DNA of 64,000 bases from Panagrolaimus kolymaensis. Lineage: Eukaryota > Nematoda > Chromadorea > Rhabditida > Panagrolaimidae. Numbering within the stretch: position 1 is the stretch's first letter; every line of letters begins with the position of its first letter. Below, one piece after another: positions 6,471 to 37,800 of this stretch. The notes below the pieces were generated by a model. It did not search any database. It worked only from the letters and a program-made list of their open reading frames with translations, and had not been told where the DNA came from. Location of the stretch: assembly GCA_028622995.1 (NCBI GenBank), contig JAJQJQ010000023.1, forward strand, positions 186,001 through 250,000, read 5' to 3'. Both the position numbers and the translations under genes were made by a program.

Positions 6471-9400
6471 GTTGCAAAGAAAATATAAACTAAAAATACG
6501 AATTTGTTTAGGTCATAATTTTAGAAACTAACCTTGTCCTTTAACATATAAAAATAATACTAAATAATTAATAATACAAATATCAATAAACCCGTTTATA
6601 AAAGTATTATATTTCATTATTTCAAAATTAGCAGCAACAGCAGCCGCCAATATTACTGTAGCTTTTGCAGTAACTATTAACTGCAAAAAGCAATAAATAA
6701 TAAAATTTGCGAAATAAAAAATAAAATCAAGTTGACGCAATAAAACAAATAAAGAAATAATAATAAAAATTATATTACTCAACAACTTCTTTTTTAATAT
6801 AATGTAAATTGAAACCTTTGTAGTCTCCAAATAAAAATTCGAATAAAAAAAAACAACGACAAAACAATAAATGGAGGATCTAAGATCACATAAGTGTGAA
6901 AAGTAATAAGTAGCCTTCACTTCTTTTCTTTTCTCAAGTAAGTGAGTGTAAGCACAAAGAATAATAATAAAAAGCTGCAAATATATGCAAACAATCACCG
7001 AAGAATAAGGAGCGAGTAAGTTAGTTAGCTGAGGTTGCGTGATACTTGATTGAGTAAGTATTGAGTCAGCGTCGTCAGGTAATAAGAAAAAGGTGTAAAC
7101 CTTAAAAAAAGAAAATAGGTGAAAATAAAACTTTTTCTTTTTTCAAAGCTTCTCGTAGGTAGGTATCGTTCTTGATTGTAGTGTTCGCGCATTTTTAATT
7201 TTTTTTATTTATTTACGAACAGAAAAAAGTGACAAAAAAAGAAAACATTTTTTTTTCGGAAAAAAAATTCTTTTAAAGGTGTTGCAAAAGTTATCGATGC
7301 TAGCTGCCGAGAAAGGGCCAGTGATATATAAAAAAAGAAGAAAAGAAACCATCTCTACCGTTTCTTCTTTCTTCGCTTTTTTAATACCGTGAACAAAGAT
7401 TATCCTGAATGAATAATAAAAAAAAGCATCACGGAGATTTTTTTATTGGGAGCAGAGGAGCAAAACTGCGAAACTTTTAAAGCTTAAAATTCAACGTTTT
7501 GAAATCAAAAAAGGTGAAAAAAAATGTAACAATAGAAGGTTTAAATTCACGTTAAATAAATAAATAAATAAAAACTTTGCAGTAAAATAAAATAAAATAA
7601 GAAGTTAAGTTATAAAAGATTTTCTATGCATAAGTTGAGATTATGCTTTTTGCTTTATAAATAAAGGTTTAAGCTTATTATATATATACGTATGCGTGAC
7701 AAGATATTTAATAAGTATATAGGAAGAAAAAAAATATGAAGGATGACGGGTCACTGATTAAATGAACAAAGTTTCTTTGCTCACTAAATAAAAAAGTTGG
7801 TTTCTAGCAATCTCAAGCTATTCTTGTGGAAACAGACAAAATGCAAAAAAATTTTTAAAAACAGAAGAAAAAAAATCGAATGTAAAACAAAGAAAAATAA
7901 ATCAATGTTTGTTTGGTCCGCTTTCGGGGATCTCAGCGATCATTGATTTATAATAAAAAAATGATGATACACTCAAAAACTCAAAAGAGAGAGATGAATG
8001 TCCAAAATAATAAATAGAAAAAAGGTGTCTTTGAAGTGTTATTCTCGAAGTTTCTATTCCTTGAATAAAAAATAAATGAAAAATAAAGGAGCTTTGACAA
8101 TTTTTGGGCGTTTCTTAATTTCAATGAAGAGACGAAATAGCTTGAAAACATGGAAATAAAATGCCAAAAAATTTTAAATATGAAAACCCAATTTCATCAA
8201 CAAATTAAAAAAAAAGAAAAAGAAGGAATATTGGCATTAAAAAAATCTTCTTCCATTTACTTTGTGAGAAATCGTAAAATTATTAAAAGCAAAAGTTTAA
8301 AAAGCAACTCTAAAGGCAATATCCTTCTTTAAAGACAAATAGATAAATATAATTTATCGTTGACGCCAAAAACAGTAAATTGGAACCTATTTTAATATGC
8401 GCCTTAAATAGTAAATAAGTCTCAAAAACAAAAACATTAAACAAACAAAAAATATATTTAAAAAAAGACAACTCATTTTCTCATACTCAAATAAAAAGGT
8501 GATGGGTCGACGACGTCCTCTCTCTTTTACCTGCGGCTGCCTCTCTTTATTATTTTTTTACGTAAGCTTGCGCTTTATCTTTTTTTGGATAACAAAGAAA
8601 ATCATACGTATGCTTGCGAAATAATTTTATCCTTTCTATTTCTATTTTTTTTTTCGATGATTAAAACAGTAATGATCGAAGTCAAAGGCCTGAGAAATAT
8701 TTATACTCAAGTATCGGGTAAGTAAGTGATCGTTACCCATCCTTGAAAATCACCCTTAATAAACGAGCTATTTTTTGATTAAATAAATAAAGAAGGGAGA
8801 GTTGCTTTTTTAGAAATTAAAAAATTCTCAAATTTCTCATGAGAAGAAGCTAAATTTGGGATTGAATGAATGATGAAGTGGGTTTATAAACAAGCAGAAA
8901 ACATATAAAAATTTTTGGCAGTTCAAAATTAAAAATTGTTTCAAATAGCTTTCGATAAATTTTTTTATAAAAAAATTCATTTTCATTAAATTAGAATAAG
9001 ATTAAATAGAGGCATAAATAGACCAAAGAAAAAAGTATCGTTTCGCTTAGAAGACATTAATATCTAATAATTTTTCCTATTTTTTAAAGCAACATCTCAC
9101 TCTCTTGATTCATTTTGTGAACCAATAAAAATTAACGTCGCAAAAAAATGGATAAATAAAAACTTCAAAAAAAAGAATTGATCCACTTTAGATCGGTGAT
9201 AAATATCCATCCGTTTAGCTGTTACAAAATGGCACGGTACCATTAAAGATACTTATTTTTTTAAAAGTTAAAAATGGTAACTAAATTTAAAGCACTCAAA
9301 ACTTAATTAATTAGCAAAATAAAAGGTGGTGGATAAGTGTGACAGTCAAGGACAAAATCAACACTTGAAAGAGGTACATATGAATTAAGAGTAAAAAAAG

Positions 9401-9786
9401 GTTTGACTCAAATATCTTTTCTAACCCGATCTTTAAAGTATCTATTTTAAGTTTAGTACCAGGCGATTGATTTCATGGACGTCATCATTCCCTGTATCTA
9501 AAAAAGGATACAATAACCTTTCAAGATTTTCTTAATCCTTGGAATCTTCTCAAAGAAATTGCATTCGTTTTGTGTGGTTAAAAGTCATGTTTTAATGTAT
9601 CATAACAAAAAAAAGTTTGGAGTCATCGTTTATTTCTTTTGTACTTTTTTGTCACCTTTTTCGATGTATTATTTACAAACATGGATAAATAACAATGCTC
9701 GAAAAAAAATGCGCTCTGCTTGCTTTTTATTATAAAGAATGATCATTTTCGACACCCTTTTGCAACTACCAACAAGAAAAAACCGA
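6471..9786. other. long non-coding stretch
   Basis: About 3.3 kb, AT-rich, with many A runs and short tandem AAAT (7555-7570). Reading frames here are short and of biased composition (for example a hydrophobic, Ile/Phe-rich minus-strand frame at 6528-6998), with no convincing splice pattern. It lies upstream of the EB/C6 gene start and may hold its promoter or untranslated exons. Confidence 0.55.
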
Positions 9787-9787
9787 T

Positions 9788-10965
9788 CCCCCCGATTCAT
9801 TTCCACTGAAAAAAAACCGACAAAAAAATGATCGAAAACCGATCGTTTTTTGGCTCCATTAGCGACGTTATTTTGGCCTACAGCGTATTATAAACGACCA
9901 TGTTATATGGCCGTTTTGTGACTATAAAATAGTCGTTCTTCAACTTTTTTTTTGATCGTTAAACGACTATTTTTTCGGGCATGGTACAAAAAAAATTTCT
10001 TGAGTTTTTAGTGAAATTTTGAATATTTTAATATTATTTAATATGTCAATCAGATAAACTGATAGTAATCCAAAAATTAGATACTATGGTATACCAAAGC
10101 TTTTATAGCTGAAAGAAATGCATAGGCAATCCTTCGTTTATGCTAATTTAGGCCAGAGCTATTACTACTGAACCTATATTAACAATTTCTAGTTTAATAA
10201 TCTTCAGATGGAGTTACGCACGGCTATGCCGCCACCTTCAGAAAATGAACCAGAAATTAATCGAAACTTGAACCAAAGGTTGTTCCTTTATGTGATAGGG
10301 TATAAACACAAGGGCTACGTTTGGGTTTTCGAAAAAAATGTGAGCCAGAGAATAAAAGAAAATATTTAGTCGTTGAACGTAACAATAATAGTCGTAAAAT
10401 GATAGTTTTTACGATATGATGTTATAGAACGTTCATATTTTATGTGAACGTTCTAAAACCGATCCTATGATAGTCGTGAAACGATCATTCATATAGAAGT
10501 TCTTAAAACTACCGTATTTTGAACCATCGTTTTGAAAAAGATGAAAAAACCGTCGTAAAATTGCAAAAAAATAGTCGCTTTATAGCCAAATAAAAATGGT
10601 CGTTGAACGAACATTCGGTTTTTTTTTCAGTGTCATTTTCACGCTAAATAATGAAAACTTTATTATGTTTGCATTAGTTTTGACCTTTATTCTTTTCTTT
10701 TTCATATTTTGTGTTGGGTACAAAAATAAAATGTGATGATGATACATCATTAAAAGCAACAACGACCGATGCAAAATGGTTGCAAAGAAAAAAAAGCACC
10801 CGATATAGTCTTTCATAATTTTGTAGTCCCAAAGGTTTTTATAAGTTTGGAAATTGCAAAAAGTTTGATAGAAAAATCTAATAAAAAATCAAAAATAAGT
10901 AAAGCTAACTTTGCAAAAAATGTGGCTTTTCGCATTTTCTAAAGCACCGATAGCAACCTTTAGAA
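9788..10965 (+). repeat. left copy of a ~350-bp repeat, interrupted by a CACTG element
   Basis: Bases 9788-9803 and 10633-10965 are one repeat unit that recurs in inverted orientation at 24963-25773. The match is nearly base for base over the core (for example the segments around 10655-10690 and 10750-10815), ends near AGCGATAGCAAC and starts near CCCCGATTCATTT. The unit is split here by an 829-bp inserted element and lacks the foldback element that splits the other copy. Together the copies bracket the SecA-like gene and the small membrane-protein gene. Confidence 0.8.
9802..10634. mobile_element. CACTG-ended DNA transposon (non-autonomous)
   Basis: Element 9804-10632 (829 bp) begins CACTGAAAAAAAACCGA and ends TCGGTTTTTTTTTCAGTG, an inverted repeat. 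TC occurs on each side (9802-9803 and 10633-10634). The other copy of the host repeat, at 25750-25770, gives the unoccupied site with a single TC, so a 2-bp duplication is directly visible. CACTA/G ends with a 2-3 bp duplication suggest the CACTA (EnSpm) superfamily. GTCGTT/AACGAC motifs recur inside, as in sub-terminal transposase-binding repeats. No transposase is seen. Confidence 0.75.
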
Positions 10966-11125
10966 GCCACCAAAAAAAGTTACAACACATACGTAAATAC
11001 AAAAATTCATTTATTTGCTATCATTCAAAGTTAGAAATATATATATAAAAAAGTTTCTGATTGAAGATTTTTTCATTAGTCATCATCCATTTATCATCAT
11101 TACTTGATTGATTGAGGCTTGCTTT

Positions 11126-12037
11126 TTAAACATCTTTTGCTGGAGGTTCAGCTAATTGTGAGATAGGATTACCATCTTTATCAACGAAGATTCCATTTCC
11201 TTTGCTTACAAATTTATCATTTCCTGTTGGCAATAAAGTTGACATTGGCTTGATTTCAGTTTCAGTTTTTCCAACATTGTTGTAGTTTGTACGAGATTTT
11301 AAGTCTGGATCTTCTGCAATCTAAAAAAGAAAGGGGATTAATAACAAATACATATAAACAGGTTAACCAAAAATTGGAAAAAGGAAATGCTTGTAATCAG
11401 ATGATGATGTTTTAGCATCTTTTAAACCTCAAGATTCGATACTGAATAGACTAAGCATATTGACATTGATATGATTTTAGAGAAGTTATGCATATATAGA
11501 TAAAGCTTATACATCCTTATTTGTCTTTAAGCATATTCCTTACTTACCCAACAATAACTAATAGCATGTTACTCATCTATAGGTAAGGTTATAGCATCTA
11601 ATACTTATCACATTCAAGCCCAGAAAGAATCCCAAAAGGGAGTAAATAAAACATACATTTGTTGTTGTCTTAACTATAGTTGCTCCAGCTTTTCCTTCTT
11701 TTGATTTACCACCATTAGCTCCAGCTCCAGCTCCACCAGTAGCAGCATTAGCAGCATTTTGATCCAAAGTTACATCTTGAGTTTTGTCTAATGGTAATGG
11801 AGCACCACCATCGCCAGCGGCTGCAGGTGCGGGTGATCCAGGTGTACCAGGCGCTCCAGGTGCTGCTAAAAGTAATGCTCATTGAAAGTTTTAAAACAAA
11901 AAACAGCAAAAAATAAAGTAAAGTAACATACCAGGTTTTTTCTTTTTACAACAAAAAGCAAAAGTTGAAAGAGTTGCAATGATTTGAGTTAATATAAATG
12001 GAAGCCATAAAATTGAAAATATCAGTGATGTTGCCAT
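11126..12037 (-). CDS. small single-pass membrane protein, Gly/Ala/Pro-rich
   Basis: Exons 12037-11932, 11865-11657 and 11320-11126 give 170 codons (169 aa), all in frame with GTATGT-type donors and TTTTAG acceptors. The N-terminus is a hydrophobic segment (about residues 3-29, including LPFILTQIIATL) followed at once by CCKKKK, a typical type III membrane anchor with a cytosolic basic stop. The rest is low-complexity Pro/Gly/Ala sequence (APGAPGTPGSPAPAAAGDG, then GGAGAGANGGKSKEGKAG) and a more conserved-looking tail (TGNDKFVSKGNGIFVDKDGN). I do not recognise the family; short anchored proteins of this type are common in nematodes. It is the only other gene between the two inverted repeats flanking the SecA-like gene. 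Confidence 0.75.
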
Positions 12038-13010
12038 AATTCAGCCAGCTAATGAAGATGTTGTTGTTGCTTTGCTTTGATTTTCTTTCAATCGTCGGTT
12101 TTCGTCGTCGTTGTTGTCGTCGTCAGCAATGATGATCAAAATGAAGAATGAATAAAAAAAATGTGAAGAAGAAAAGCGATGGAAAAAAAGTAAAAACTTT
12201 GATGATGCAAATTTTTGCCAAAATGTTTTCATTGTTTGATGCGGCCTTCACACTGGTCTTGGGAAAAAGAAGCGAGAAAGTGATTTTGAAAACTTTGAAA
12301 TGGAAAAAATTATGCTAAATCAAAATGTTTTGCTGTTTTCTTTTTTTCATGGATACATCTTTTTTTTTGTAGAAATGTGTAGAATTTTTTCCTGCTAACT
12401 ATCAGAATCTCTGCCTTTTTTTGGATTGCAATAAAATCATTTTTCTATTTTTAAGTTTAACAAAGAGTATGAGAGTATGGACACATTGTGTTTTTTTTTT
12501 CACTTACATACAAGTTTGCATCAAATGATTTGATTCAAATCATTGATTTACTGCAAAAATTTATTAGGACACAAAAAATTGTCGCTTGCTTTAACTCCAA
12601 ATATGTACTACACCCGATTATTACGGAACAAAAAAGAAAAATTGTTATCAAAAAAAACTCATGATTTTTTCTATGCAATGTGTAAACCAACCAAAAGAGT
12701 AATAAAAAAAATAGACAAACGCAAATACTTTTTTTTCTTTTGTTTTCTTTAAAGATAAAAACTTTGAATTAAAACTATTTTGAAGTTTATAAGAAAGTTA
12801 AAATACCTTCAAAGGATTCATTTTTCACTCGAAAGCGAAAATTTAGATTTTTTTCTTTGAGGTGATAAGTTACAATAAAAAGATTAGCAAATATAAAAAA
12901 TAATTAGTGTATTTGAATTTTCCTCCATTATTCGCTAAACCATAGCTTTTTTAAGATACGTGAATGTTTATTTAAATAAAGACACGCTTTAAAAAATAAT
13001 AATTTTTTAG
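12038..13010. other. intergenic between divergent genes
   Basis: About 970 bp of AT-rich sequence between the starts of the small membrane protein (-) and the SecA-like gene (+), so it should contain both promoters. No specific element was recognised. Confidence 0.55.
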
Positions 13011-13021
13011 GGTAACGCAAA
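13001..13021 (+). promoter_or_regulatory. splice acceptor just upstream of the SecA-like ATG
   Basis: AATTTTTTAG at 13001-13010 lies 11 bases before the ATG at 13022. The same acceptor type is used by internal introns in this window. In a nematode this position fits a spliced-leader trans-splice acceptor; a 5' UTR intron is the alternative. Confidence 0.5.
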
Positions 13022-16000
13022 ATGCCGCCACAAGAAATTATCGAAAATGAACCACCTTTGCTTTCATTCGAAATTCAAGATCCTTCACCGAAAGATCAAT
13101 TAACCTTTTCTCATGCGGATGTAAACATAGATGAATTTGTTCGACTTGAATGGTCTTTGAATGAAGTTTTAACCCATTTTTTTGGAAGTTCTGACGAAGA
13201 CGCAGGAAATTTGAATGATCGCGATTCAACTTTTGTGACTATGTCATTCGCAGATAAATTAATGGCTTCATTTCCTCAAAAAGTTACAGAATTTGTGGAT
13301 GATTTAATTGCAACAAAAGATGAGAAAAAAATTGGTAATTTTTATGAATATTTGGAAAAGGTTGCAATTTCTAATTCTGAAATTTCTTTGGTTGAATATC
13401 TCTCAAATTTGTTTGGGGAAGAAAAGTTTGTGAATAATATTCTTGAATTAAACAATGTCGCTGGTTGTTGTAAAAAGGATGTGATTCTCCGAGTCGTACC
13501 AACAACATTCAAAGAAAAGTTTTTTAATTGTACAACTTTGCCCGGAGAATTAGGAATTTATCGAAGCATTGTAAATTCCCTAAAAAACTCTAAACTTTCT
13601 TCAACTTTTATTGAAAGCTTACAAATTTTATGGAAGCGATGTTTAGCAAAAGAAGGTGAAGAATCAGTGGATTGTGAAGCGGAAACCGATGAAATTCATT
13701 TTGAACATATTCTTTTTTCAAACTGCGTTAATTCAGTTATTAAAGAACTCGATGGTGGCTCACGAAAAGTTGGAATTAGCTATGAATTTATTCGAAAAGA
13801 TATTCGATCAATGTTTGTTCCATTGGGTTTCAAAATTTTCGAAGAAGATGGACATCATGTTTTAGAAGTTTCTGGAAGAAAAGTTGTAATTTCAGCTGTG
13901 ATGGCAAAACTTCAAAGCAAACTCAATCCTAAAATAACTCAAATTCGATTCTCCGCGGTTAATGAAATCATTGTTATTGAAGATATTACTCAACCAGGTA
14001 TTTCTATTTCAATTATTTCTCCAACGGTTACTATCAAAGGCCACGTAACCTTTGATATTTCGGGTGGAAATGCACAGGATAATAGTTCAATTGAAAAAGC
14101 AGTCGATGGAAAAGAAAAAGGTGAAGATGGTAGCGATGGAAATGATGGCGTTGCAGGCTCCAGTGCCGGACATTTTTGTATTCACTCAGAAACGGTTAAA
14201 AATGCTGAGAAATTACACATTATTTTAAATGGTGGAAATGGCAATCATGGCCAAGATGGTGGTGATGGAGCGGATGGGGATGATGGATATGGAGAAAAAT
14301 TCAATGAAGTTTTTTCCGAAGATGAAATATCCTCAATGAAATGGAAATCCGCTGGGAATGCTCTCACCGGAGGAATAGGATATAATCTTGTTGGAGCTTT
14401 TGAAAGAGCTATGATGAGTAGTGGAACTGTGAGAGTTACCAATCAATCATCTTATTATTTAAGTTCCCACATAATTTGTTATTATGAAGGCACTCAAGGG
14501 CGAACAGGTGGCCAAGGAGGTGAGAAATAAAAATATTAATTCGTAGAAATTTAATAAACCCTAATTTAATTTCAGGTCGAAATGGCTGTGGAGGAGAAGG
14601 TGGAAAAAAGGGTGAAGCCAGTATCATCAATTCCAAAGGTGGCGAGGCATTCCCTATACGAGTAACAGCTCAAAATGGATTAGATGGAAAAGCAGGAAAA
14701 CCAGGAAATACAGGTAAACATGGAAAAGAAGGATGGGATGTAGGAATCACCCGTCGGACAGGGGAAGACCCAAATGAATATGGTCGAAATCATAATCAAA
14801 AATTTGAAATAGATTTCGATAAAAATTATACTTCTAATCGAGTTTATGTTAAAGCTTTATATAATGGAAGTGGAAGTTATTGTTATGCAACAATAAAACC
14901 GAGAAATCGTGAACGTCAAATGCTTCAGGTTCATTCATAAATTAATCTTGTATTTAAGATTTATACCCAAATTTTTTTAGGATCATGAAAAAACCCGCCA
15001 ACGAAAAACTGATGCAGAAAGAAAGGGTGATGCCATAGCTCGTAAATCCACAGCGATCAATACTCAAGCCATAGAACAACGATATAGTGAAATGGCTGAA
15101 ACAACTATGAAAGAAGAATTAAATGTATCAGCGGATAAAGAAAGTGAAGCCCAATTGAATCGACTCGCAGTTCGAATAGATATTCCCAAAGAAGCTTCCT
15201 ACACAGAAATGAAAGAAGTTGTAGTTTCAAAACATGAAAATTTTGATGCAAGTGAAAACATTGAAGAAACAATTCAAAAACTTTGTGAAAAAATGGCTGA
15301 TTGGAATCTTTTAAAATCAACAAAAAATTCAAAATTGATTGAAAAACATTCGAAAATTCTTGAATTGAAACTAATTGTGAGTCGTTTACGCCATGAAGAA
15401 GCCTTCAAAAAAGCTTCAAAGGGAGAATTTGCAAAATGCATTCACAAATATTTAAAATCTAAAAAAGTTGAAGAAACCACTGAATTTCAAATGCTTCAAA
15501 TTGCTAAAATTGCTAAAAAGGTCCAAATTCTTGAAAGAAAAGGAATAAATTGCTCAAAATATATGCGACCTTTCACCGCTGAAATCACAGGGTTTTCTGC
15601 TTGCACTGAAATTCTTTTTAATGAAACACGTTGCAAAGAAGTCCTTTCAAAAACAATAAATGAATGCAAAGATAAGATTTTAACTTTTCCCGAATTTAAT
15701 ATGGTTGAATCTTTATGGGAATATTGGAGTGAAACAATTTTAATACATAAAAAGCCTCTTGAAAAGCATAGACTATTTTTGGAGAATGCTTTTGATGCAA
15801 TAAAACAAAATTATCAAACTGATAAGGCTATAGCAGAATTAAAAGCATTTATGGAAGGTGCATCAAAAATGGAAAAAGATGAAATTGAAAAAGTTGAAAA
15901 AGAAGCTGAAACTAATATCGAATTTATTATAAAAGCATCGAAAGGAAAATTTGACAACAAAAAATTAAATTTTGAAGGAGCAAAACTTTTATTTGTTTAT

Positions 16001-19000
16001 ATCGAAGCTAAATCGTTGGTTGATTCTTGCAAAGCTATCACAAACGCGCTGAAACTAATTTGTGAAGTTCAAACAAGCGAACGAGAATTTGTTGAAAATG
16101 GTTATCAATTTGATTATTCATATGTAACTCAAAAATGGCTTCATTTACTTGAAGAAGGCGGCAAAGAAAGCTTTCAAAAGGATTTCGATTTGATTGTTGA
16201 ATGTGGATCTTCATCGGCTGCTGGACGATCAATAATTGCATATGAAACAAAAACAAATCTTAGAATTTATTGCGATCAAAGAATTATTGAATTTCATTAT
16301 CCCAATGGAAAATTGGTTCATCATGTGAATATCGATTCTAAAGATGGAAAATTGGAGTTACTCGCATTTAATACAAATCACGTGGAACTTTGTGATTATC
16401 GAGAAAATTATGGTTCCACTTTTCGTCAACGCCTCGATCGATATGAAGATGATGGCCTTGGAATTAAAGGAGCTTCATTGATAGAAAAAATCAATGTTAT
16501 ACCAGAAAATGAAAAAGTTTTATGTGAAAATCTTAACAAACTTTTTGCATATTTTGACGCCAAAGATAAAACCATTTTACCAACTAAACAAAATTTGAAA
16601 CTTCTTTCCGATGAATTCCCTCTCACTGGTGCTCGTCTAATTAATTCGTTTCTTACTGTATTCGCCATGGAAGGATGTTACATTAATATTGAGCGGCTTG
16701 CATTTATTATTGATACAGCCTTTGATAATTGCATGAAAGCCAATTATCGCCATTATCTTTTCTCTTCCATTCTTCTATGTTATCCCCAAAATGAATGGAT
16801 AGATGAATTCTTTATGATTAGTTGCGAAGATTCATTATCTCATAAAATTCGAAGAAGTGGAGAATTGAAAGCTCGTTTATCCAAAATTACTGATGATCGA
16901 ATAAAAATTCTTTGCACTCAAAAAATGAATGAAAATAAAAACAATCTTAGCGAAGATTCACTTTTTGAACTTTTACACCTTTTGAAGGATGCCAAACTTG
17001 CATTTCCCGAACTTCGAAGTGTTGATATGGAAAAATGGGGAGAAATTATTCAAGGCACTCATGTTTATAATCTTTTAAAAATGCAAAAATGTTTATTAAA
17101 TGAAAAAGAAACAGAATTGGCTTTGTTTTGGTGTTGCAAAATCGCAGAAGTTTTTGGCCCTCAAGAAGCTGTTGGAGTTTTTGCTGTTCTCGCATCTCAA
17201 TGCAATCTTGGTTCAGAGGAAAATCCGCTGACAGCCAACATTAAAGATCAAGGCGAAATGAAAATTTCGTTATCGATTTTGGGTAGACTTGTTCAAAGAC
17301 TTTGTAATAATGAAATTGCCACGAGCGCTGGAACTGTATCACCCGCGAGCGTATTTTGGACAATTTGGTCTTCAATTCAAAATGCAGATGAACTTCCTAA
17401 ATCCCCTAATGAAGAAACAGAATTTTATCCTTTGCCATTGGTAGCAGCCGAACTTTTAACTCCTCCAACCGAATCAAAACCACGAGAATTGGAAACTATT
17501 ATGCAAATAATGAAAAAAGGTGATGAAAAATCAGAGGCTTTTGAAAAGGCTGCATTTTTGCTTTCTGGAAAATCAATGGATTCAAGTAAAAAATTTAAAG
17601 CTAAAAATGAAAGTAGCGATAATGAAGACGACGATGAGGATGGAGATTCTGTTGACGACGAAAGTGGTGAAGATGAGGATGACGAGGAAGAACATGTTCC
17701 TCCAGGATATCATGGAAATTATACATGGCAAGAAACCACAACTCGATATGATCCATATCGAAATTGTTACATAACAGAAACAAAAACTTACACAGGAACC
17801 CGTCGACCCCAGCAACAACGACAACAACAATGTCCACAAATGAAACAACAACAAAAAGAATGGGAAAAACAGCAGCGTCAATATCAAAAACAAGTGCGTG
17901 AACAACAAAAAGAAGCTGAGCGACGGCAAAAGGAGTATCAAAAAGCGGTTGAAAAAGAGCAAAAACTTTATGAAAAGCAATTTCGTGAACAGCAAAAGCA
18001 AGTGGCACGTCAACAAAAGGAATATCAAAAGGCGATGGGAAAACAACAAAATCAAATGAAAAATCAAATGATCGCTCAAATGAAACAACAACTTCGAAAT
18101 ATGGGTATGCATGGGCATTCTCAAGTTTTTATTAATGGTCAACCCATTCAAGTTAACCTTGATGAAGATGACGAAGATGAAGATGAGGATGAAGAAGCAA
18201 GCGACGAAGAGGATGAAGAGGAAGAAGAAAGTGAAGACGAAGATACCGACGAAGAAGACATAGAAGAATATTCAACTAAAAATAAAAAGAAAACAAACAA
18301 AAAGGTTGAAAAAAGCATTGAAGAATGTTTGAAACTTGTAAATGGAAATAGTGCGCCCGATCAACTTCGAGAATCCTTTGCTACCTCTTTTCCCAATGGA
18401 ACAGATAAAGATTTGGCTATGCTTCTAATGGTTGATGAAGTAATTCTAAAATATCGAGGATTTCGATTACGAGATAATCAAAAATTAGCTGTTCTTTGTG
18501 CATTAAAATCAAATGGAAGCATTTTACAACAAATTGCAACGGGCGAAGGCAAATCTCTTATAATTGCAGCAATTTCAATTATCTCTGTTCTCAAAGGTCA
18601 CACAGTAAATGTTGTAACTTCTTCCTCTACATTAGCGAAACGAGATGTGGAATCCCCAGCACCTAAAGGTTGCACAGATTTATACGCGGCTTTTGGAATT
18701 TCTGCTGCTCATGTTTGTGTTGAAGATTCAAGCATTCGACAAAATCTTTATGCATCAGCAAATATTATTTATGGAGATCTCACCAGTTTTCAAAGGGATT
18801 ATCTATTGGATACTTTTTATGGAATGAATATTGTTGGAAGTCGTCGATTTGATGTAATTTTGGTGGATGAAGTTGATAGCATGCTTTTGGATCAAGGTAG
18901 TAACATGCTTTATCTCTCCCATGAAATTCCTGATTTTGAATTATTGCAACCTTTATTTGTTCGAATTTGGCAAATTGTTAATGCGGCAGTTGGCAGTCAT

Positions 19001-22000
19001 GGAAGCGTTGAATTTGCAACCGATAAAGTTACAAGAAATGTTTATGAAAGTATTTTTTATGCTTTGGATTTAACTCAACTTCAAACTATGTTGGATTGCA
19101 CTGAATTTGAAGCAGAAAATCTTCGAATGAATTTATTAAGAAATAAAATTGTCGAAGCTGATGGAACTTTTATTAGCGACAATCCCACACTAATTAATGC
19201 AAAAATTGAATCCATTGAAGTAAGCTCACAAACTTTAAAAGATAGAATTCAATTTGTTGTAAAACAAATTTTTGATCAACAAAAACTATTCATTCCTAAA
19301 CATTTACATCCTTTTATTTCTCGACATTTGGATCAATTTGTTGATAACGCTAAATCAGCTTTATTTATGAAAGAGGGAGAAGGATATCAAATTGATTGCG
19401 CCCATATGGATTCCTCAATTTCATATGAACCCAGAGTAATTATCGTTGAGCAAGGCACTGGCGTGGATCTTCCCACAACTCAATGGAGTAATGGATTACA
19501 TCAATTTTTGCAACTAAAACATGGGTGTCGATTGAGTGCATTAAGTTTGAAAGCAGTATTCGTGTCAAATGTTTCATTTTTAAAAAAATATGAACATCTT
19601 TATGGATTTTCTGGAACTCTTGGAGCTGAGGCTGAACGAAAACAACTTTCTAATATGTATTCCCTTGATTGCATTGCCATTCCATCTTCCCTTCCCAAAC
19701 TTTTATATGAAGAATGTAGCATTGTGGCGGATAACGTGGATGATTGGATTGCAAATGTTTTTGAAGGTTTATTAATAAAATTAAAGCAAAATCGATCCAT
19801 TTTGGTTATTTGTGAATCCATTCGTCAAGTCAATACTCTTTCATCAGCGGTAAAAATTCATGCAAGAAAAGCCCTACAAAATGATGGAAATTTTCTTAGA
19901 TATTATGAAAATATAATTCTTTATCGTCGAGATCGAGAAACATTTGATTATGGTTGTGGAACAAAAGATTTGGAATGTGGAAAAATTATTTTTTCAACTA
20001 ATTTAGCTGGACGTGGAACAGATATAAAATTAGAAAAAGAATTGGTTAAAAATGGTGGTTTACATGTTATTGTTGCTTTCCTTCCAGATAATGTTCGAGT
20101 GGAAGAACAAGCTTTTGGTCGAGCGGCTCGTTGTGGTGAACCTGGAACTGCTCAGCTTATTGTCCTCAATGATTCTGAAACATCTGCGCATATTTCTCGA
20201 CTTAAAATTCATCGAAATGCTGAAGAAGTGAAACGCATTCAAGCAGTTACAACATTTTATGATAATTCTATCAAAGTTGAAGAAGATTGTTTCGACCAAT
20301 TTGCGGCTGTTTTTAAATCACTTTCATCTCAAATGGATACTTTTGAAGGGATTCAAGAGGATATGAAACAATTACTATCTCGAGATTTACTCGATCGATG
20401 GGCTGATTGGTTGGATACTCAACCTCGTGAAGGAATAGATGGAAAAATAAAAATTCAAAAAGCTGCCGATTTTGTTTCAACTTTAGATTTACCAAATCAA
20501 AAACCCATTCGTCCATTGAATAGAGTTCGATGTGGAGTTCTCAATGCTATTTCGAATAAATTTTCTGAAGCTGAAAGCGATTTTGATTATGTTATTTACA
20601 ATTTCCCCGATTGTTGCACCGAAGCTAAATATTATAAAGGTTTTACTATTATTAAACAAAATGAAATCACGAGCAGAAATGATTCAGCTTATCTTCAAGT
20701 TAAATCACTTTTCGATGATGCAAGACGAGGTTTTCAAGCTCGATTAGAAAGTTGCCAACGTGATCGAAGCATCATAGAAAGTTATCGACAACGAGATAAT
20801 CAAGCAAGATTTTCCATAGATATTTTCAATCAACAACAATCAGAAATTTCTCAACTTATGCAAATGTATGCTCAAAGTGTGGAAGGTTTAATTGGAGGTA
20901 GAATGGATTATCATGATTTAATTCAAGATGTAAATAGCGAAGAAGCAGCTTTAAAAGTTTATGAAGATTTCAAAAATTGTGGTGCAATTGAAGGCCTTCA
21001 ATTTGCTAATAATTTTGATGAAAGCAATATTGAAACTTTTTGTAAAACCAGCTTTGTAAGTAACAAAAAAGTTTTGCAATTACTTAAAAAAGCCCAATCC
21101 AGCGGCAATTCTATTGCGAATTTGCTTAATTTTGATATCGGTGAAACCCCATGTTTGGAAGAATTTTGGTCAGAATTAACTGAGAAAAATTTAATTCAAA
21201 ATCATCAACAACATGTATTTTTGAATAATTCAGCAGTGGAAAAATTGAATCCTGCTATGGCTGATTTGCTTGATAGATGCCGCATACAATACCCAGAAAC
21301 AGAAAATAAACCTATTGATGAGGATAAAAAAGTTGAAAAAGATCCAACAAAACCAAAATTGCCCCAACGATTTTTCATGAATTCCACGGTTTCAATGGAT
21401 GAAAAAAATTGGATTGAATTAAGCCTTCCTAATTTACATGCAAATGTGTCTCAAGAAGGAATAGAAACTTTGAAAGAAATTGGGGCAATTTTATTCACAT
21501 TTTCTTCGACGCTAAATGAAAAAGTAGAAGTTGAAAAAGCAGATTTTAACAAATTTAGTTATTTCACTGAAATGGATTTGATTGAAATTGGTATTCCAGT
21601 GTCGGACGCAAAATTAATTATCACTAAACTATGTGAAAATCAAGTTCTAGTTGAAACTCAAAATTATTACAAACTAAATATAACAACAAATTTGGAAGAT
21701 TCAAATTTAACGCAATGTTATGCTCCAATTGTTGAACAATTAATTAAAATGAAATTTGCATATACACTTGCTTATCGAACTATGAGAAAAGATGATTCTG
21801 AAAATAAACCAATTACCATTCATTTGCCATCACGTAAAGAATCCATTGCAAGTATTATGGATCTTATTGATAGCGGAGTTTTTGAATATGTTAACGTTAA
21901 TTTCAAAGCTCTCAGCGGTGAAAGTCAAGTCACTTCGATTCTTAATAATACCAAGCATCATCTTAATTCATATCTCCAAGCTTCACCATCCTCCGATAAA

Positions 22001-24757
22001 GTTATAAATAATTATGAAAAAATTGATTCAAATGCAACTCAAATATTCCAACAATTTAAAGGTAAATCAGGCATAGATAAATTTGAAACAGTTGATGCAA
22101 AACTTGTTGAAATTTGGAAGAAAATGGGTGCATCCAATCTTGTTTCTCTTCATGATACTTTTTTGTATACTTCTCATGTAGCTACTCATATCATAGAATA
22201 TATGGAGAAAAAATGGAGTTGGAAAATGTTAAAGAAAATTGCTTTAGTTGCCGCATTTGCTGTTTGTCAATTAGCTGCGGGTGCTGCAATCACTATGTGT
22301 ACAGCAGGAGCAGGCGTGTTTGTAGGCAAATTTTTTATCAGCGAAGGTATAACAAATATTTTTTATACGGTTTTAAAAAGCAAAATATTTAGGTATCAGT
22401 GATTTAATTTTTGCCCTCAAAGGTGCATGTACCGGATATGCTGGAAGTTATTGGGAGCATAAAAAAATGAGCATGATTTCATCAGCTCTTCTATGCGGTG
22501 CTGCGGCATTCATGGCACATGGAGCCCATTTTAATTCGTTGGCTCATTCACTCGTAGGACCTGGAGCTTCAACCGCTACAGGTGCAAAAGTGATGTCCCT
22601 TGCAGGTTCAGCATTATTCAAACAAGTTGGATTTATGAATGTCCTTTGGGCAGCTATAAAAGAAGTAGGAAAACAAGTTATTACGGCTCTAGCAAATTTA
22701 GCTGTTTTCACTGTGATTCAACAAGTAAATATTTTATTCAAAAATTCTAATTATTAAAAGCACAAATTTTATAGGCTTTACAAGGTTTAATCAAAACTGC
22801 CATTGCCAAAGCTCGCCAATACATTATGAGTTATTTAACTTCAAGCGGATCAGAGCGACTAAAAGCAACTTTATACAAAATTATCAAAGGACTTGGTATT
22901 GCTGCAGGTTCACAGCTTGCAAGCAAATGTGGCTCCTATGTTTTATCATCAAAAAATAAAATGGAAAGCTTTTTGGGAAAAGCATGCGATTTTATTTTCA
23001 AAGAATATCGCCATCTCTTTCTTGGAGTTTGTTCAGGCCTCCAACAAGGCGCAACTCATGCCCATTCCACCATGGGCATGGTAATGAAAGCAATAAGCAC
23101 AATTCCCACTTTGCTTATGGCTGGACAATTAACTCAAATGGTTACTCATATGATTAGTAAATTAACGGGCGTTCATGATGAAATTGAAATTGTCATTGTC
23201 GCTGAATTTGAAGCAAAACAGTGCATTTCTAAAAAATTTAGCAAAAGTGAAAAACCAAACCAACAAAAAGCGCCAAAGCCATTAACTGATTCAGAAATAA
23301 ATGAAGCTTGTGAAAAGCTTTTAAATCAATGGAAAGACCAATTAGCTCAAGAAGTTGATACAACAATTGAAACTCGAATTGCTACGCCTCTTTTGTCTAT
23401 GTTAGCAGCAAAAGTGGAGGGATATCTTGAATCAGCGGTAAAGGCAACGTATGCAAAAGTTATGGAATGGAGAGATGAATCGGCATTAGCCAAATATAAA
23501 CAAGATTACGAACATGAGAAAGGAGCACATGGAGAAAATGAAAAAGCTGCATTTGAACATTATGAAAAACGCCTCAATGCTTTAATGGAAAGAACCCGAA
23601 GTCCGGAAGTTATGAAAGAGATTATTGCGAATTGCAGTAAAATTGATATGACTTGCGCTTCAGCAGCTGGCACCATCATTTCAAATATTATTCATGGCCC
23701 CGTTAAAATGATTATAAAAGATGAAAATGGAAATTACTTTGAACATCCACCTGGAGATGTTCCTGGTGCAAAGGTTGTTAAAGTGGATTTAAAAGCGGAA
23801 CATTATGGTAATAAATTTACAATTAAAAACTTTTCTTGATTTACAAATAGCGTTTTAGGAACTCAAACGATTCAAAGTGGAAAAAATTCTTGCTTATATG
23901 ATGCTCTTTCCGCACATGTCCCCGAATTTCATAATGCCATTCATAACGACCATCAATTTAGAGAAATACTTGGAAACGTTGTGACTCATGATCCTTATTA
24001 TAAATTGCATATCACATCAGGATGGCATTCAATTGCAATTCAACAAGATCATATTGGAGGGAAAAAAAATCGATTTGGTCCAAATAATCCTCCACCAACA
24101 GATAAAATGCCACCTCCAATTTTAGAGGGCGTTAATCCAGGAACAATTGATTCAAATACTTGTCATACTATTATTCCCCATTTAACCAAAGATGAAGATG
24201 GCAATGTGGTTTGCGAATATGTTACAAAAGGCGATAAACTTTATAAAGTTGATCATGAAAATAAAACAGTTCAGGAAAAAAAGGTTGGAACTGTTGCAAA
24301 AGGTGGAGATAAACCTGCTCATGGAAAGGATAATGGTCATTGGATGCACAAATGTTTAGATGGTCCTGGAGAATATTGTCGTAAACAAGATTCACGAGTA
24401 AGAGTTGAAATTAATCTTTTATAAACAAAAAAATGTTTATAGGTCAATCGAGGACAAGATGCTCAGCATGCAAAAGAACATAAAGCTGTTTTAAGTATAA
24501 ACCCCGAGGAAACTCTAGGTGTAACTCGCATAACCCAAGACATGGCAAATAAATGGGATATTCAACAAACTGATTTTTATAAAAAAGGTTCAAGTGAATG
24601 CTTCATGACAATTGTTTCTAAGCAACCCCATACATATGATTCGACAAATAATGATGTGGATATATATCAACGAGTTGATGATTCTTCACTTCCAACTAAT
24701 TTGAAAAAAAAAGGATATACGTATGAAAAATACAAGAATAATGATAAAAAATTATAA
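13022..24757 (+). CDS. giant SecA-like DEAD motor protein with Gly-rich repeats and OTU-like end
   Basis: Seven exons (13022-14519, 14576-14928, 14981-22346, 22393-22724, 22775-23807, 23859-24397, 24443-24757) give 3,812 codons in frame. The SecA motor is explicit: RLRDNQKLAVL, Walker A ATGEGKS (residues 1803-1809), VVTSSSTLAKRD, IIYGDLTSFQRDYL, Walker B DEVDS (1913-1917), a preprotein-binding-like insert with WSNGLHQ, GFSGTLG (2159-2165), STNLAGRGTDI (2289-2299) and GRAARCGEPG (2330-2339). All nucleotide-binding motifs are intact, so ATPase activity is plausible. Before it lie glycine-rich collagen-like repeats (~361-424 and ~490-560), an acidic stretch (~1490-1525), a Q/E coiled linker (~1557-1651) and a second acidic run (~1677-1714). 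After it come a hydrophobic module (~3030-3240, with SEGISDLI) and an OTU-like segment with GKNSCLYDAL (Cys 3539). No signal peptide is seen. Cellular role unknown. Exon 3 alone is 7.4 kb, unlike its intron-rich neighbours. Confidence 0.9.
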
Positions 24758-24962
24758 ATTAATCTTATAATTAAAAAATAATTTAAATTTTATTATTTTA
24801 ATTTCATAAAATGTATTAAACTATGAAAAAGTTTGCAAATTAATTTTTTACACATTTGTTGTGACAATATTGAATGTAATAGGGAATATGCAAATTTCAA
24901 GCAAAAATAAATTATTGTAAAACTAATTTTTTTCTCTTCTTTTTTGTGTATTCTAAATGTAT

Positions 24963-25773
24963 CTGGCTTTTCACGTGTTGCTATCGCTTGAAAATGTGAA
25001 AAGCCACGTTTTTTCAAAGTTCAACGAATGGATTTTTACAAAATCAGCTTTACTTATTTTTGATTTTTAAAGGCACGTTTGAACGAAAGGTTCGTTGACT
25101 TTTTTCGTTGTAGGATCACTTTCGGTTGTTTTTTATTGAAAAATCTTGGACACCAAAATGTGTTTCGTTAGAGATATATTTCAATTAATTATGCCATTTT
25201 TATAGAGGCAGAAAAAATCAGCATAAAAACTCTATCGGGTAGCGTCGAGTTTGAGAAATCAAGAAAAAATTAACTTTTTTACAGGGGATACCAAGGGAAA
25301 TAGTTAATTTTTTTTGGATTTTTCAAACTCGACGCTACCCGATAGAGTTTTTTATGCTGATTTTTTCTGCCTCTATAAAAATACATAATTAATTATAAAA
25401 TATCTCAAACGAAACACATTTTGATGACCAAAATTCTTCTATTGAAAACCTTCGAAAAAAATCCCATCACGAAAAAGGTCAACGAACCAAAAGTGTGGGC
25501 ATCGTTCAAACGTGAAGGTATTTCAATTAAACTTTTTCAAGTTTATAAAAACCTTTTATTTGGGACTACAAAATTATGAAAGACTATATCGGGTGCTTTT
25601 TTTTCTTTGCAACCATTTTGCATCGGTCGCTGTTGCTTTTAATGATGTCATCATTACATTTTATTTTTGTACCCAACACAAAATATGAGAAAGAAAAGAA
25701 TAAAGGTCAAAACTAATGCAAACATAATTAAGTTTTATATTATTTAGCGTGAAAATGAAATGAATCGGGGATA
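24963..25773 (-). repeat. right copy of the ~350-bp repeat, interrupted by a foldback element
   Basis: Bases 24963-25073 and 25515-25773 match the repeat at 9788-10965 in the opposite orientation. It lacks the CACTG element found there, and a 441-bp foldback sits inside it instead. Its inner end is ~200 bp past the SecA-like stop codon. Confidence 0.8.
25070..25518. mobile_element. foldback MITE, ~210-bp arms
   Basis: Element 25074-25514 is one large imperfect palindrome. It runs from CACGTTTGAACG to CGTTCAAACGTG, with the inner arms around ACTCTATCGGGTAGCGTCGAG and CTCGACGCTACCCGATAGAGT. AAGG lies on both sides (25070-25073 and 25515-25518) as a possible 4-bp duplication. The left copy of the host repeat has an undisturbed sequence at this site. 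No coding. Superfamily not assignable from the ends alone. Confidence 0.8.
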
Positions 25774-25859
25774 GAGCTTGATGTTGTAAAATCAAAAAAA
25801 AAGAACAAAAAATTAAATCCAAATTTCAGCAAAAAAAACACAATATTTTCCACTCCATA

Positions 25860-26121
25860 TTAAAGGGAGTGTCTCAGCAAACGAGAAAACTTTTACTACA
25901 GCGGGTGTTCCTAGCCCGAAAGTTCATTGTCTCAAAAGCTTACAAAGTGCTACGAATTTTTGTAGCTTTTTGTAGCATTTTGAGAAAAAAAAACAAAGTG
26001 CTACAAAAAGCTACAAAAAATTTGAAGCTCTTTGTAAGCTTTTGAGACAATGAAAAAAAACTTTCGGGCTAGGAACACCCGCTGTAAGGAGTTTTCTCGT
26101 TTGCTGAGACACTCCCTTTAA
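25860..26121. mobile_element. foldback MITE with TTAA target site
   Basis: Element 25864-26117 (254 bp) begins AGGGAGTGTCTCAGCAAACG and ends with the complement. The palindrome continues inward past CAGCGGGTGTTCCTAGCCCG and through CTACAAAAAGCTACAAAA-type arms. TTAA lies on both sides (25860-25863 and 26118-26121), the target of piggyBac-type transposition; a 3-bp TWA target (Harbinger-type) is the alternative reading. Non-autonomous. Confidence 0.75.
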
Positions 26122-27440
26122 AAAGGTGATAACATGATAACACATTTCAAGATTTCCGTGAAAAATGGCAGAAAAAAAAGATAATACGATAATACCATAT
26201 TATCCTTACACCTCATCTTTCATAAAATAAAGCCTAAAATTCCTTCATCAAAGATTATTTAAAGAGAGAGAGAATAACAACAATTCGAAAAGCATACTAC
26301 TCAAAAAAAAGCGTGAAAACTTTCTCAAAAAAAAGGTAATAAAAGTTATAACGCATGATAACACAATCTTCTAATCCTTATTTACACCTTACAAGAAATA
26401 AAGCTTCCCATTCAACGAAATATAACATTTCATAGCTGAAAAAAAAAACATTTTCAATGTTCAATGTTTAAGTTTATATTCTAAAAACCTTTGTAAAAAA
26501 ATGAAAGACATGAAGTTGCTACTGATATTTTTGCTTAACTTGTTATTGACTGTAATAGTATATACTGAGAAATACCATTGCTCTCAAAATCATACTATTA
26601 TCTATTTACAGACAGATGAGATAGCATTTTATTATAGTGATTTGTTTGATTTTGCAAACCAATTTAAATGCAATATTACTTTTGTGTTGAATAGTACTCA
26701 TGATGTTGAAGTAAAATTTTAGCTTAAAAAATACAACAAAAAAAATTCATACAAAAATAATTTATTTTCATTCATATTTTTTAGAATGTTAGATGCTATG
26801 GAACAATTAGACATTTAGAATCATCAATTAATTTATCTCCCGTTTACTATTATTTTTCTCATAATCTATCCTTTTTGCCCATCTATGCTGTCAAGGAACC
26901 TTGGTATACCCAATATCTTGAAGGCAGTGTAATATTCGAAGATTGGGGAAATAGCTATTGTCCTTTGGAATCCATAAGCAGGATAAATCCTTATGAATTT
27001 ATTGATGAAAATCAAGTTTTATATCTTACTAACATAATCGATGGAACTAACACTATTATACATCCATGTAAATGGCAATTTATCTCTCATAATGAATATG
27101 GATTTAAAATTGTTATAGAAGTTTTTGAGTTCGATGGAAATACTAAATTTATTATTGAAAATCGAACTGATATTCTTGTAAAGTAAGTCACAAATATCCT
27201 AACGAGTAACAACGGCGACAACCGTCGCAAGATTATATATTTTGATTTTAGTGAAAAATCAGTTAAGCTTAACCATCCTATATACAATCCTGATACTTAC
27301 ATTCAAATTAATTTAATGAATCATAGCCCAAATTTACGCTTTCAAGCTTATATTTCTATTGTTAAAAGCACTTTTGTTAAAGAAGATGGAAATTGTAGCT
27401 TTTATCAAAATGTTGATCCATCTGCTTGGATTAAATACAG

Positions 27441-27645
27441 TGTACCCTCATAACCTGGTGGCTCGCCAACACACCTAAGCTCCGCCTATACAAGTAACTA
27501 TATAAAGCCTTGGTAGAGTACCACTAGAGGTGTGACTCCCACCTCAGGCGCATGGAGAACCTAATAAACGATACTTAACCATCTCTGTCTATAAACAGCA
27601 CAAAGGGACCAACACATATAGGAATACCATCTTACTTCCGTAACA
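27441..27645 (+). repeat. 5' LTR
   Basis: 205 bp, identical by eye to the copy at 30755-30959. It contains TATATAAAG (27499-27507), a plausible TATA box, and AATAAA as a possible polyadenylation signal. Confidence 0.9.
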
Positions 27646-29153
27646 TAATGGAGGGCCCACATTCCATCCTCATTTTTTCTGTTTGTGGAAAAAATGTTGA
27701 AAACGTCTTTGGTGTGGAGTCCACCGGAGAAAAGCAATAAAATAGTTTTTAGGCTAAACGAAGTTATAAGCGCTAATACCAAAAAAAAAAAATATAAATT
27801 TTTTTAAATCCAAACCGTAGTGTCCAAATTACTTGGGGATTTGTGACACGCTTTTCGAGAATTTTTAAATTAATGCTAGCTTATTTTTTGAAAACCTGTG
27901 CCATTTTATATTGAATATTGATAATTTTTTTGCTAGCGTGTGCGCGTTTTATTTTAAATTTAGGCGGGGCAGTGCCGGAAGGCAACTAAATAATATGATA
28001 ATAGCACTGTTGTTGAAACAAGAAAAACCCAGCGGGACCTGAAGAAGCCGCCTAATGATGATAATGAATGATAATATATGCACAGGCAGGTCGGTTTTAG
28101 CTTGATTTCATTATAATAACTTCATAAAAGTTATTTTTGTTTTTTTTACGCCACACAAAACGGTTTGGTGTGTTAAGTGAGGGCTGATAAGCTGGACATA
28201 CTCGAAAAGTAAAAGTCCTTAAATGTGACATTTTTAATAAATTACATTTTTTTCTCTCGCCTTCCAAAACTAAGGGAAGCCAAAAAAAAAAAAAATATTA
28301 CCGCTTATTTTTGGATTAGTTGTTTTAATTTCTAAAAAATTCGCCAGCCATTGGAAGACTTGATCACTCGCTCCAGTGACGTAACTTTTGTATTTTAATC
28401 GCGCTCCTAAATTTAAAAAAAATAAGATCTCGCCGGTCATAAAAGTGTTTCAATCATAATTTCTTTCGAGAGTAAAGAAACCGGTTCAATAACGATAAGA
28501 CAACACCCAAAAAAAAAAAAATCACAAAATAAAGGTTAAATTTACGCAACCATCGTCTCACATTTTTAATCATTTTATGCAAATGTGGTTTTAATATGAA
28601 ACACTAAATTGTCACCGAACCGACAAAATCTTGTTTCCCCTTTCAAAAAAAAAAAAGAAAAAGAAAAGAAAAAGATCGAGTAATAAAAAGTACTAGTTTC
28701 GAGAACGAAACGAGTTTTAATTTTGGTTTGTCGAGAAATAGTCAAATTTAATAATTGCATAAGAAAGTAAAAAGTCATAGTTCACAAAAAAGTATAATAA
28801 AGTGGAACGATAAACTTTTTGGCATTTTTAAATATTAAGAAACTAGTTTCTTAACTTTTGGTCAAAAATAGAAATAATTAAACTATTGTTAAAAGATAAA
28901 CTAAATAAAAATGAATACTTGGTTGTTACCTTAAAAAAAAAAAAGGGAAAAAATAAATAAATAAAAGAAAATAGTTAGTCAGTCATGTTTTTATGATCGC
29001 TTAGTAGCAAGTCGCTCTTTCGATTTTCGGTTAGGTATTATTACCAGAAAAGCTAAACTTAAGATTAATCGTGCGACGGCACGTATATATCGCTTATAGT
29101 TCGACTGAAGTTATTTTGCCAACAGCCAACTGATCCATTTATTATTCAAACAG

Positions 29154-29456
29154 ATGGAAAATCAACCACTAGACGACTATGCAAAAGCAATATTAATTAT
29201 GGTCGACGATGTTTTTCGAGTGGAAAATGGATTTGATGAAAATTTAAAAGAAAAAGAAAGAATTCGATTCTTTGTTCGAGGAGTGAAAAAGCCAATAAAA
29301 TTACATCAGAAAGGTAAAAGATTTGATTCCTTCGAAAAAGTTTTGGAGAGAGCACACGAACTTGAAAAAGATCAGAATCCCGCGATCACTGATGGAAAAC
29401 CTAATGACTCAGCTACAATAAACAATTGTCAACAAGAGATAAGTTTGAAAATTTAA
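29154..29456 (+). pseudogene. Gag-like fragment of the LTR element
   Basis: A 100-residue frame has the pattern of retrotransposon Gag proteins: LDDYAKAILIMVDDVF, then KERIRFFVRGVKKPIK, then FDSFEKVLERAHELEK. There is no zinc knuckle and no protease or reverse transcriptase follows. Just upstream, in another frame, QQPTDPFIIQTD (around 29115-29152) looks like the start of an RNase H domain, which would be out of the normal gag-pol order. Best read as rearranged remains; family assignment is tentative. Confidence 0.5.
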
Positions 29457-30754: not shown

Positions 30755-30959
30755 TGTACCCTCATAACCTGGTGGCTCGCCAACACACCTAAGCTCCGCC
30801 TATACAAGTAACTATATAAAGCCTTGGTAGAGTACCACTAGAGGTGTGACTCCCACCTCAGGCGCATGGAGAACCTAATAAACGATACTTAACCATCTCT
30901 GTCTATAAACAGCACAAAGGGACCAACACATATAGGAATACCATCTTACTTCCGTAACA
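30755..30959 (+). repeat. 3' LTR
   Basis: 205 bp, identical by eye to the 5' LTR; followed at once by the second ACAG and by the continuation of the interrupted exon. Confidence 0.9.
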
Positions 30960-37575: not shown

Positions 37576-37728
37576 ACTGTAACAACATTCATCACATGTC
37601 GTAGAAAATCGCTTAAAAATACAAGAATTTGATTTCCAGTTATAAGCTATAAACCATGAAAATATCTTGCCATGATTCATGACCTAATCAATGAATAGGT
37701 TTGTAGATCAATAATTAAAAGAGAAATA

Positions 37729-37800
37729 AGCTCAAGTGTTTTTTGTTTAAACTTTAAAAAGGTCAAATGACAAAAAAAAGACTGAAAGTGATTCATTTTT
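37729..37800 (+). promoter_or_regulatory. conserved upstream block of LRR copy 1
   Basis: The block runs from AGCTCAAGTGTTTTTTGTTT through CTTTAAAAAGGTCAAATGAC to ACTGAAAGTGATTCATTTT. It ends 50 bp before the ATG. The same block sits 50-62 bp before the ATG of all six LRR genes (near 41381, 43181, 46651, 48966 and 51241), so it is a promoter or 5' UTR module that is copied or conserved with the genes. Confidence 0.7.

Follow-up and report, generated by a model that had tools for sequence, protein, structure and literature searches.

Giant secA genes have been described in the Wolbachia strains wBol1-b and wHa, together with full-length matches in insects (Duplouy et al. 2013, PMC3639933), and SecA appears, in the available portions of the phage WO literature, as part of the eukaryotic association module (Bordenstein 2016, PMC5062602; PMC9203015). 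Here we consider a giant SecA-like gene in a 64,000-nucleotide stretch of the Panagrolaimus kolymaensis genome (C22:186001-250000, in an assembly of 265.8 Mb and 807 contigs); this whole stretch is called the window. The window protein belongs to the same family as the eukaryotic-like prophage giants of Wolbachia (wBol1_1092 of wBol1-b, and the wHa giant) and the giants of insects and Daphnia. Where PMC3639933 and PMC5062602 take up these genes, they treat the SecA domain and its transfer, and not the tails, tail exchange, the Cys/His domain that we call C4, nematodes or rotifers; they judge the introns of their genes mostly spurious, whereas the introns of the window gene are supported. The original prediction for this DNA, made from its letters, held that such genes are annotated only automatically, and the printed discussion in those papers contradicts it. 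Giant animal secA is already known, and the new point is the exchangeable-tail architecture.

A second comparison is with the polymorphic toxins, which have a constant body and a variable C-terminal tip. The window family resembles them in this, with a sharp junction in its Wolbachia members, and an immunity gene likewise stands beside a prophage relative. Unlike the polymorphic toxins, the window family has a SecA motor in its body, and the copy in the window is encoded by an animal genome, contains introns, is under selection and has no recognised immunity gene. PMC3482391 (2012) reports domains like SecA among the effectors of Amoebophilus. CifB and other Wolbachia effectors, also with variable C-terminal modules, are likened to polymorphic toxins in the accessible portion of PMC11342252, in whose main text the word SecA has zero occurrences. 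A search of the open-licence PMC literature, by titles and the starts of abstracts, found among the papers listed no description of SecA giants as polymorphic toxins; PMC9111745, PMC8163844 and PMC7046167 deal, in their available text, with ordinary SecA genes. Canonical SecA shares with the window protein the DEAD motor motifs and their order, but the window protein has no match to PF07516 or PF02810, is about four times longer and falls in a separate clade.

Tail exchange on a constant body

Of 240 hits plus the window protein, 241 in all, 71 extend to the end of C4 and 68 have tails of at least 60 residues. Behind this one conserved domain the 68 tails, that of the window included, fall into 12 BLAST clusters, with 26, 24, 5, 3, 2 and 2 members plus six singletons. 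In a full-length alignment of 35 rows (the window protein and 34 chosen from the 120 listed hits described below), conservation starts in the Gly-rich N-terminal region and continues to roughly residue 3,598, with almost nothing conserved after. The junction can be followed closely in a set of 11 proteins from Wolbachia or similar to its proteins: 7 are named as Wolbachia at source, and 4 are unnamed metagenome proteins grouped with them by similarity. The last 1,000 residues of the body are 78-100% identical in all 55 pairs; tail identity is 90-100% in 20 of these pairs and 14-26% in the other 35. P0054 and P0055 have identical bodies (1.00, rounded) and tails that are 19% identical, and P0048 and P0068 have bodies 80% and tails 95% identical. 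When three swapped pairs were profiled, one of them moth versus Wolbachia, the identity dropped directly after an FGG motif in all three. Animal proteins follow the same pattern: of the two Wolbachia tail types, one is found on bee P0069 and the second on moth P0057. By these comparisons the family has the constant body and exchangeable tip, joined at a sharp junction, that characterise polymorphic toxin systems. The original prediction saw correctly that the gene is real and unusual, and overlooked this tail, its main feature.

What do the tails encode? In a scan of ten tails, that of P0089 matched a GIY-YIG nuclease at 6e-5, above the curated cut-off; that of P0106 matched GIY-YIG at 2.5e-4, just below it, and that of P0073 more weakly, at 0.024. 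The P0011 tail matched the OTT_1508 deaminase at 2.4e-8. The remaining 6 of the 10, including the tails of the window and Panagrolaimus davidi proteins, matched no informative Pfam or NCBIfam family. The window tail forms a three-sequence family with P. davidi and Panagrolaimus PS1159, with the pattern GH..L.G.G...VN.GQ..H...H; a likeness of this motif to the non-specific endonuclease toxins (Endonuclea_NS) was set aside after neither a family search nor a profile search against solved structures produced a match. The GIY-YIG tails of P0089 and P0106 have a Cys-rich stretch in front, reminiscent of the endonucleases of Penelope-type retroelements.

Within the worm genome the SecA locus lies on three homeologous contigs, C22 (the window), C29 and C36, and a count of three haplotypes agrees with the triploidy of the parthenogenetic Panagrolaimus reported in PMC6889759. 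The C29 homeolog aligns over 11,111 nt at 94.3% identity, across window positions 12967-24064, and there DNA similarity ends; the tail protein of C29 is 40% identical to that of the window (77 of 192 aligned residues). The upstream DNA of C29 is 83.5-89% identical to the window, so that the flank on this side has changed less than the tail. Between the window and P. davidi proteins identity falls from 69% to 31% at the tail junction, and three more C4-bearing copies (one on C27 and two on C24; some may be alleles) lose similarity at residues 3596-3598. On C36, in a blastn of positions 8500-27500, exon 1 is kept to 14511 and the alignment then jumps to 24965, a 10.4-kb deletion. This deletion haplotype (G000:C36:1232500-1241500, L099) is presence/absence variation within one genome.

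Relatives in bacteria, prophages and plasmids

Two IMG/VR contigs, L081 and L082, carry giant open reading frames (ORFs) of 3,557 and 3,555 residues, and phage terminase and portal genes adjoin that of L082. The L081 giant ends in a C-terminal WHH nuclease (8e-17), and the gene after it encodes a SUKH-1 immunity protein (3.7e-23). The tail of L082 and the gene behind it are different, and no family was recognised for either. One bacterial member, L081, is thus a predicted polymorphic toxin with its immunity gene, as judged by the customary genomic criteria. An ORF after the SUKH gene (L081:16206-16844) repeats part of the pre-tail sequence (FDIDPNA..TPIPY), resembles an orphan tail cassette by eye and has no Pfam match.

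How much of the body do these relatives share with the window protein? Ten segment models, run against the L081 and L082 giants, detected the motor and the helical domain C3 alone, C3 with E-values of about 1e-10 to 1e-11. C3 is the sole segment besides the motor to be detected in the prophage relatives (L081, L082), a Legionella metagenome-assembled genome (MAG; L001) and the Megaera and Legionella geestiana relatives. Plasmid giants occur in Megaera (5,225 residues), Bandiella and L. geestiana, and those of Megaera and L. geestiana share the motor and C3 with the family. On the Megaera plasmid (L084:347-20815) the giant gene is followed directly by a 1,589-residue SecA-like gene, whose product could be a co-motor or a protective factor; a comparable SecA gene pair, 1091/1092, is described for Wolbachia wBol1-b in the available text of PMC3639933. 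Scans of viral contigs with the window core, A3 and P0050 returned no relative, and the A1 scan gave L081-L083. A scan of genome contigs gave 80 loci among the matches listed, of which L001 was examined, and bacterial giants there are undercounted; the other listed loci, 23-36% identical, look like ordinary SecA.

The window gene and its motor

The gene occupies 13022-24757 on the + strand, and splicing of its seven exons gives one stop-free protein of 3,811 residues, exactly the seven-exon animal gene of some 3,800 residues that had been predicted. The six introns are GT-AG, of 45-56 nt each, in phases 1,0,1,0,1,0. Aligned residues flank junctions 1-6 in 32, 32, 34, 32, 33 and 19 of the 35 rows; junction 6 is inside the variable tail (intron 24398-24442), and its support comes mainly from P. 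davidi. The predicted nuclear encoding is borne out, since the window also holds nematode-type genes, among them those for a chemoreceptor of Srbc type, a nuclear-receptor domain and EB modules; it encodes leucine-rich-repeat proteins as well. Between the window and C29 the ratio of nonsynonymous to synonymous substitution rates (dN/dS) is 0.112 in exon 3 (2,453 codons) and 0.043 in the SecA core, and the exon 3 value excludes chance and decay.

The motifs of the motor core, ATGEGKS, DEVDS, GFSGTLG, AGRGTDI, GRAARCGEPG and WSNGLHQ, are all intact, as first reported. The Pfam scan of the window protein, done exon by exon, gave a SecA_DEAD (PF07517) match at 7e-25; in the search of solved structures all 24 of the 24 sequences matched were SecA, the best at 3.6e-28, with alignments that cover every listed motif. 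The motor is therefore of the SecA family, and membership of another DEAD family, against which the original prediction had asked for a check, is excluded. The preprotein-binding-like insert of that prediction is present by position; PF01043, the preprotein-binding family, is unmatched in the exon-by-exon scan and matches relatives weakly (P0034, 3e-5; P0050, 0.0018; L082, 0.0065). Neither PF07516 (SecA scaffold/wing, SecA_SW) nor PF02810 is matched in the window protein, P0001, P0050, P0034, L082 or L001; the canonical relatives P0235 and P0238-P0240 carry both. Because the wing domains were not found and the protein stands far from canonical SecA in the tree, we regard it as something other than a SecA translocase.

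C4 is a putative relative of the OTU proteases, a resemblance first proposed from its motif. C3 bears a tentative, by-eye likeness to the latrotoxin C-terminal domain (latrotoxin-CTD); the protein search returned the query alone, and a search of phage records returned no such protein. An AlphaFold 2 (AF2) model of the whole C-terminus had a predicted local distance difference test score (pLDDT) of 54.6 and gave no fold match at E <= 0.001.

Membership and descent of the family

Of 699 hits that passed threshold, the best 120 were listed. Their source names assign 29 to nematodes, 43 to arthropods, 9 to rotifers and 9 to Rickettsiales (8 Wolbachia and one Rickettsiales MAG), and 30 are without organism name. 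The "few invertebrates" of the original prediction is thus far too narrow. Several of the listed hits lie on chromosome-size contigs; the closest proteins among them are from P. davidi (81%, core) and Halicephalobus (62%), as befits a panagrolaimid-like host, and the nematode entries carry the UniRef label "Chloroplast protein-transporting ATPase". The window protein aligns with Wolbachia P0050 in four pieces within residues 1043-3597. The window gene belongs to a giant SecA-like family that occurs in animals (nematodes, rotifers and arthropods) and in intracellular bacteria, Wolbachia among them, and its homology to this family is colinear far past the motor.

In a 77-row tree of motor cores, which brings in the bacterial and invertebrate homologues as had been proposed, five canonical SecA rows form a clade of their own (support 100, branch length 2.0), and the window row lies apart from them, inside the giant clade, in a Panagrolaimus/Halicephalobus clade of 9 rows (support 100). 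With the midpoint root as drawn, chlamydial, gammaproteobacterial and Margulisbacteria rows share the side of canonical SecA; rows of Legionella, prophage, fish and Globodera, and a few more, fall outside the giant clade, the fish SecA-like proteins being P0188, P0193 and P0198. The sampled Wolbachia copies are placed among arthropod copies, and the nematodes do not form one clade. Cross-host pairings include a spider with the Rickettsiales MAG and a Panagrolaimus row with Rotaria. Wolbachia motor cores are nearly identical to the P0044 (Artemia) and P0057 (Chilo) rows, by very recent transfer or through Wolbachia DNA within those assemblies.

With 21 long or distant rows removed, the resulting 56-row tree rejects a single nematode clade (approximately unbiased test, p-AU 3e-63, for a group chosen with the tree already in view); over its 51 labelled rows, 8 changes are needed among four host groups. 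Horizontal transfer can cause such scattering, and so can old paralogy with loss. What then of the predicted acquisition from a bacterium? The prokaryotic type of the motor stands; a simple transfer from bacterium to worm is unsupported by the tree placements.

Which explanation accounts for the gene?

The best explanation, and one we think somewhat probable, is that the window encodes an animal-encoded giant protein of polymorphic-toxin build. The protein has a constant body of about 3,600 residues, composed of the Gly-rich N-terminal region, a helical middle, the SecA-type ATPase, C3 and C4, and then a short tail. Wolbachia proteins whose bodies are near-identical exchange this tail at a single junction, and beyond that point the copies in the worm genome have a strongly diverged tail or another one. 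The body is under purifying selection, and the tails of some relatives hold toxin-type enzymes. From SecA biochemistry, the motor with C3 might push or unfold its own tail across a membrane; from its position and fold, C4 might cleave near the junction or act on host ubiquitin. The released tail would be the active payload, that of the window being nuclease-like by motif only, and the overall pattern suggests that the worm may keep the protein as an effector against symbionts, microbes or rival genomes. A wider claim, which we put forward tentatively and with some doubt, is that animals (nematodes, rotifers and arthropods) carry a chromosomal arsenal of SecA-motor polymorphic toxins, with tails exchanged within a genome and shared with Wolbachia and phage, the motor and C3 acting as a self-contained apparatus for delivery of a cleaved enzyme into symbionts, microbes or rival cells. 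If true, swappable-tip toxins are not solely bacterial weapons, and animal lineages keep many of them in their chromosomes, with strong selection acting on a protein-translocating motor in toxin-type genes. A function would be suggested for a family labelled as a chloroplast ATPase, the giant genes common to Wolbachia phages and animals would be explained in part, and tail activity, C4 cleavage and motor-driven transfer become testable predictions.

Two observations weigh against a polymorphic-toxin build. C29 realigns downstream only at about window position 33740, at 71-75%, so that the break extends past the tail, and there may be a larger rearrangement or a diverged segment on C29 from 24064 onward. 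L081 and L082, compared in 150-column blocks, are 92-100% identical to column ~2,850 in 18 of 19 blocks (77% in the other), and past that column identity steps down from 85% to 19% gradually rather than sharply. A rival reading is a domesticated intracellular helicase or translocase with a housekeeping or stress role, its tail merely fast-evolving and non-toxic. In its favour are the purifying selection on the body and the fact that the tails of C22 and C29 still belong together as a family. A SecA DEAD-like unigene is also within the top 30 up-regulated in sexual females of Daphnia similoides (Table 1 of PMC5037449, in its available text). We consider a housekeeping role unlikely, however: bodies that are near-identical have exchanged unrelated tails, some of the tails are enzymes of toxin type, and one prophage relative is accompanied by an immunity gene.

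Might the gene instead be a selfish, gene-drive-like element, in which the protein is a toxin kept by copies with an unknown antidote? The genome has at least 27 SecA_DEAD matches (alleles and broken frames included), C36 is without 10.4 kb of the gene, and tails differ among haplotypes; but no antidote candidate was identified, and general retention would explain the strong constraint on the motor and the occurrence in several phyla at least equally well. We hold such an element to be a shade less probable than a housekeeping role. The predicted mobile-element origin fares worse. Inverted repeats (10633-10919 and 25033-25758; 93% identical over 221 bp) do flank the gene in the manner of a terminal inverted repeat (TIR) element with SecA as cargo. 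The 221-bp arm, however, has 5 matches in the whole assembly, all at the SecA locus on C22, C36 and C29, and both arms stay on C36 despite the loss of most of the gene. Arms that neither disperse nor move with their cargo led us to reject a TIR DNA transposon, which we consider very improbable. Contamination by bacteria, or bacterial DNA inserted very recently, which the near-identity of Wolbachia and some arthropod copies could suggest, is for this locus refuted by the introns, the nematode genes in the window, the long contig with its homeologs and the Panagrolaimus/Halicephalobus clade, and its probability is negligible.

Coordinates and neighbouring features

Table 1. Parts of the giant SecA-like gene and its deletion on C36, in window coordinates
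Feature	Position	Strand	Basis or remark
Exons of the giant SecA-like gene	13022-14519, 14576-14928, 14981-22346, 22393-22724, 22775-23807, 23859-24397, 24443-24757	+	
Gly-rich (GxxGxxG) N-terminal region, residues ~345-560	14054..14758	+	conserved in the 35-row alignment; spans intron 1
Stretch missing from C36	14512..24964	+	8500-27500 aligned to C36 by blastn
Acidic and Gln-rich linker, residues ~1480-1725	17567..18304	+	lineage specific; alignment occupancy 0.09-0.62
SecA motor core, residues 1745-2420	18362..20389	+	SecA_DEAD profile, solved-structure matches, alignment
Insert at the SecA preprotein-binding domain position, residues ~1940-2100	18947..19429	+	placed by position only
C3 hydrophobic helical domain, residues ~3000-3240	22127..22945	+	spans introns 3 and 4
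C4 Cys/His domain, residues ~3440-3598	23543..24070	+	His3526, Cys3539, His3584; resembles OTU proteases
Variable C-terminal tail, residues ~3597-3811	24065..24757	+	DNA similarity to C29 stops at 24064

Within the window no significant remnant of a second SecA copy and no RNA family was found, and the ORF at 26785-27186, downstream of the SecA-like gene, matches no family; no gene at the window was recognised as an immunity gene. The stretch at 9804-10632 is an insertion, which C29 and C36 lack at their homeologous sites. A high-copy repeat with dozens of genome matches, several 99-100% identical, makes up at least 797 bp of it (9804-10600), and the insert is a predicted young transposable element. 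Because it abuts the inverted-repeat arm, that arm has a sharp left edge. Foldback (palindromic) elements lie at 25089-25488, inside the right arm, and at 25855-26126.

Further downstream, direct repeats of 205 bp (27441-27645 and 30755-30959) are 100% identical, start with TG, end with CA and have ACAG at both outer flanks; a gag-like ORF, recognised by eye, lies between them at 29109-29456, and the pair (27441-30959) is probably a young long terminal repeat (LTR) element. From 37660 to 51342 there are about six leucine-rich-repeat genes, on both strands, with about 70-77% DNA identity.

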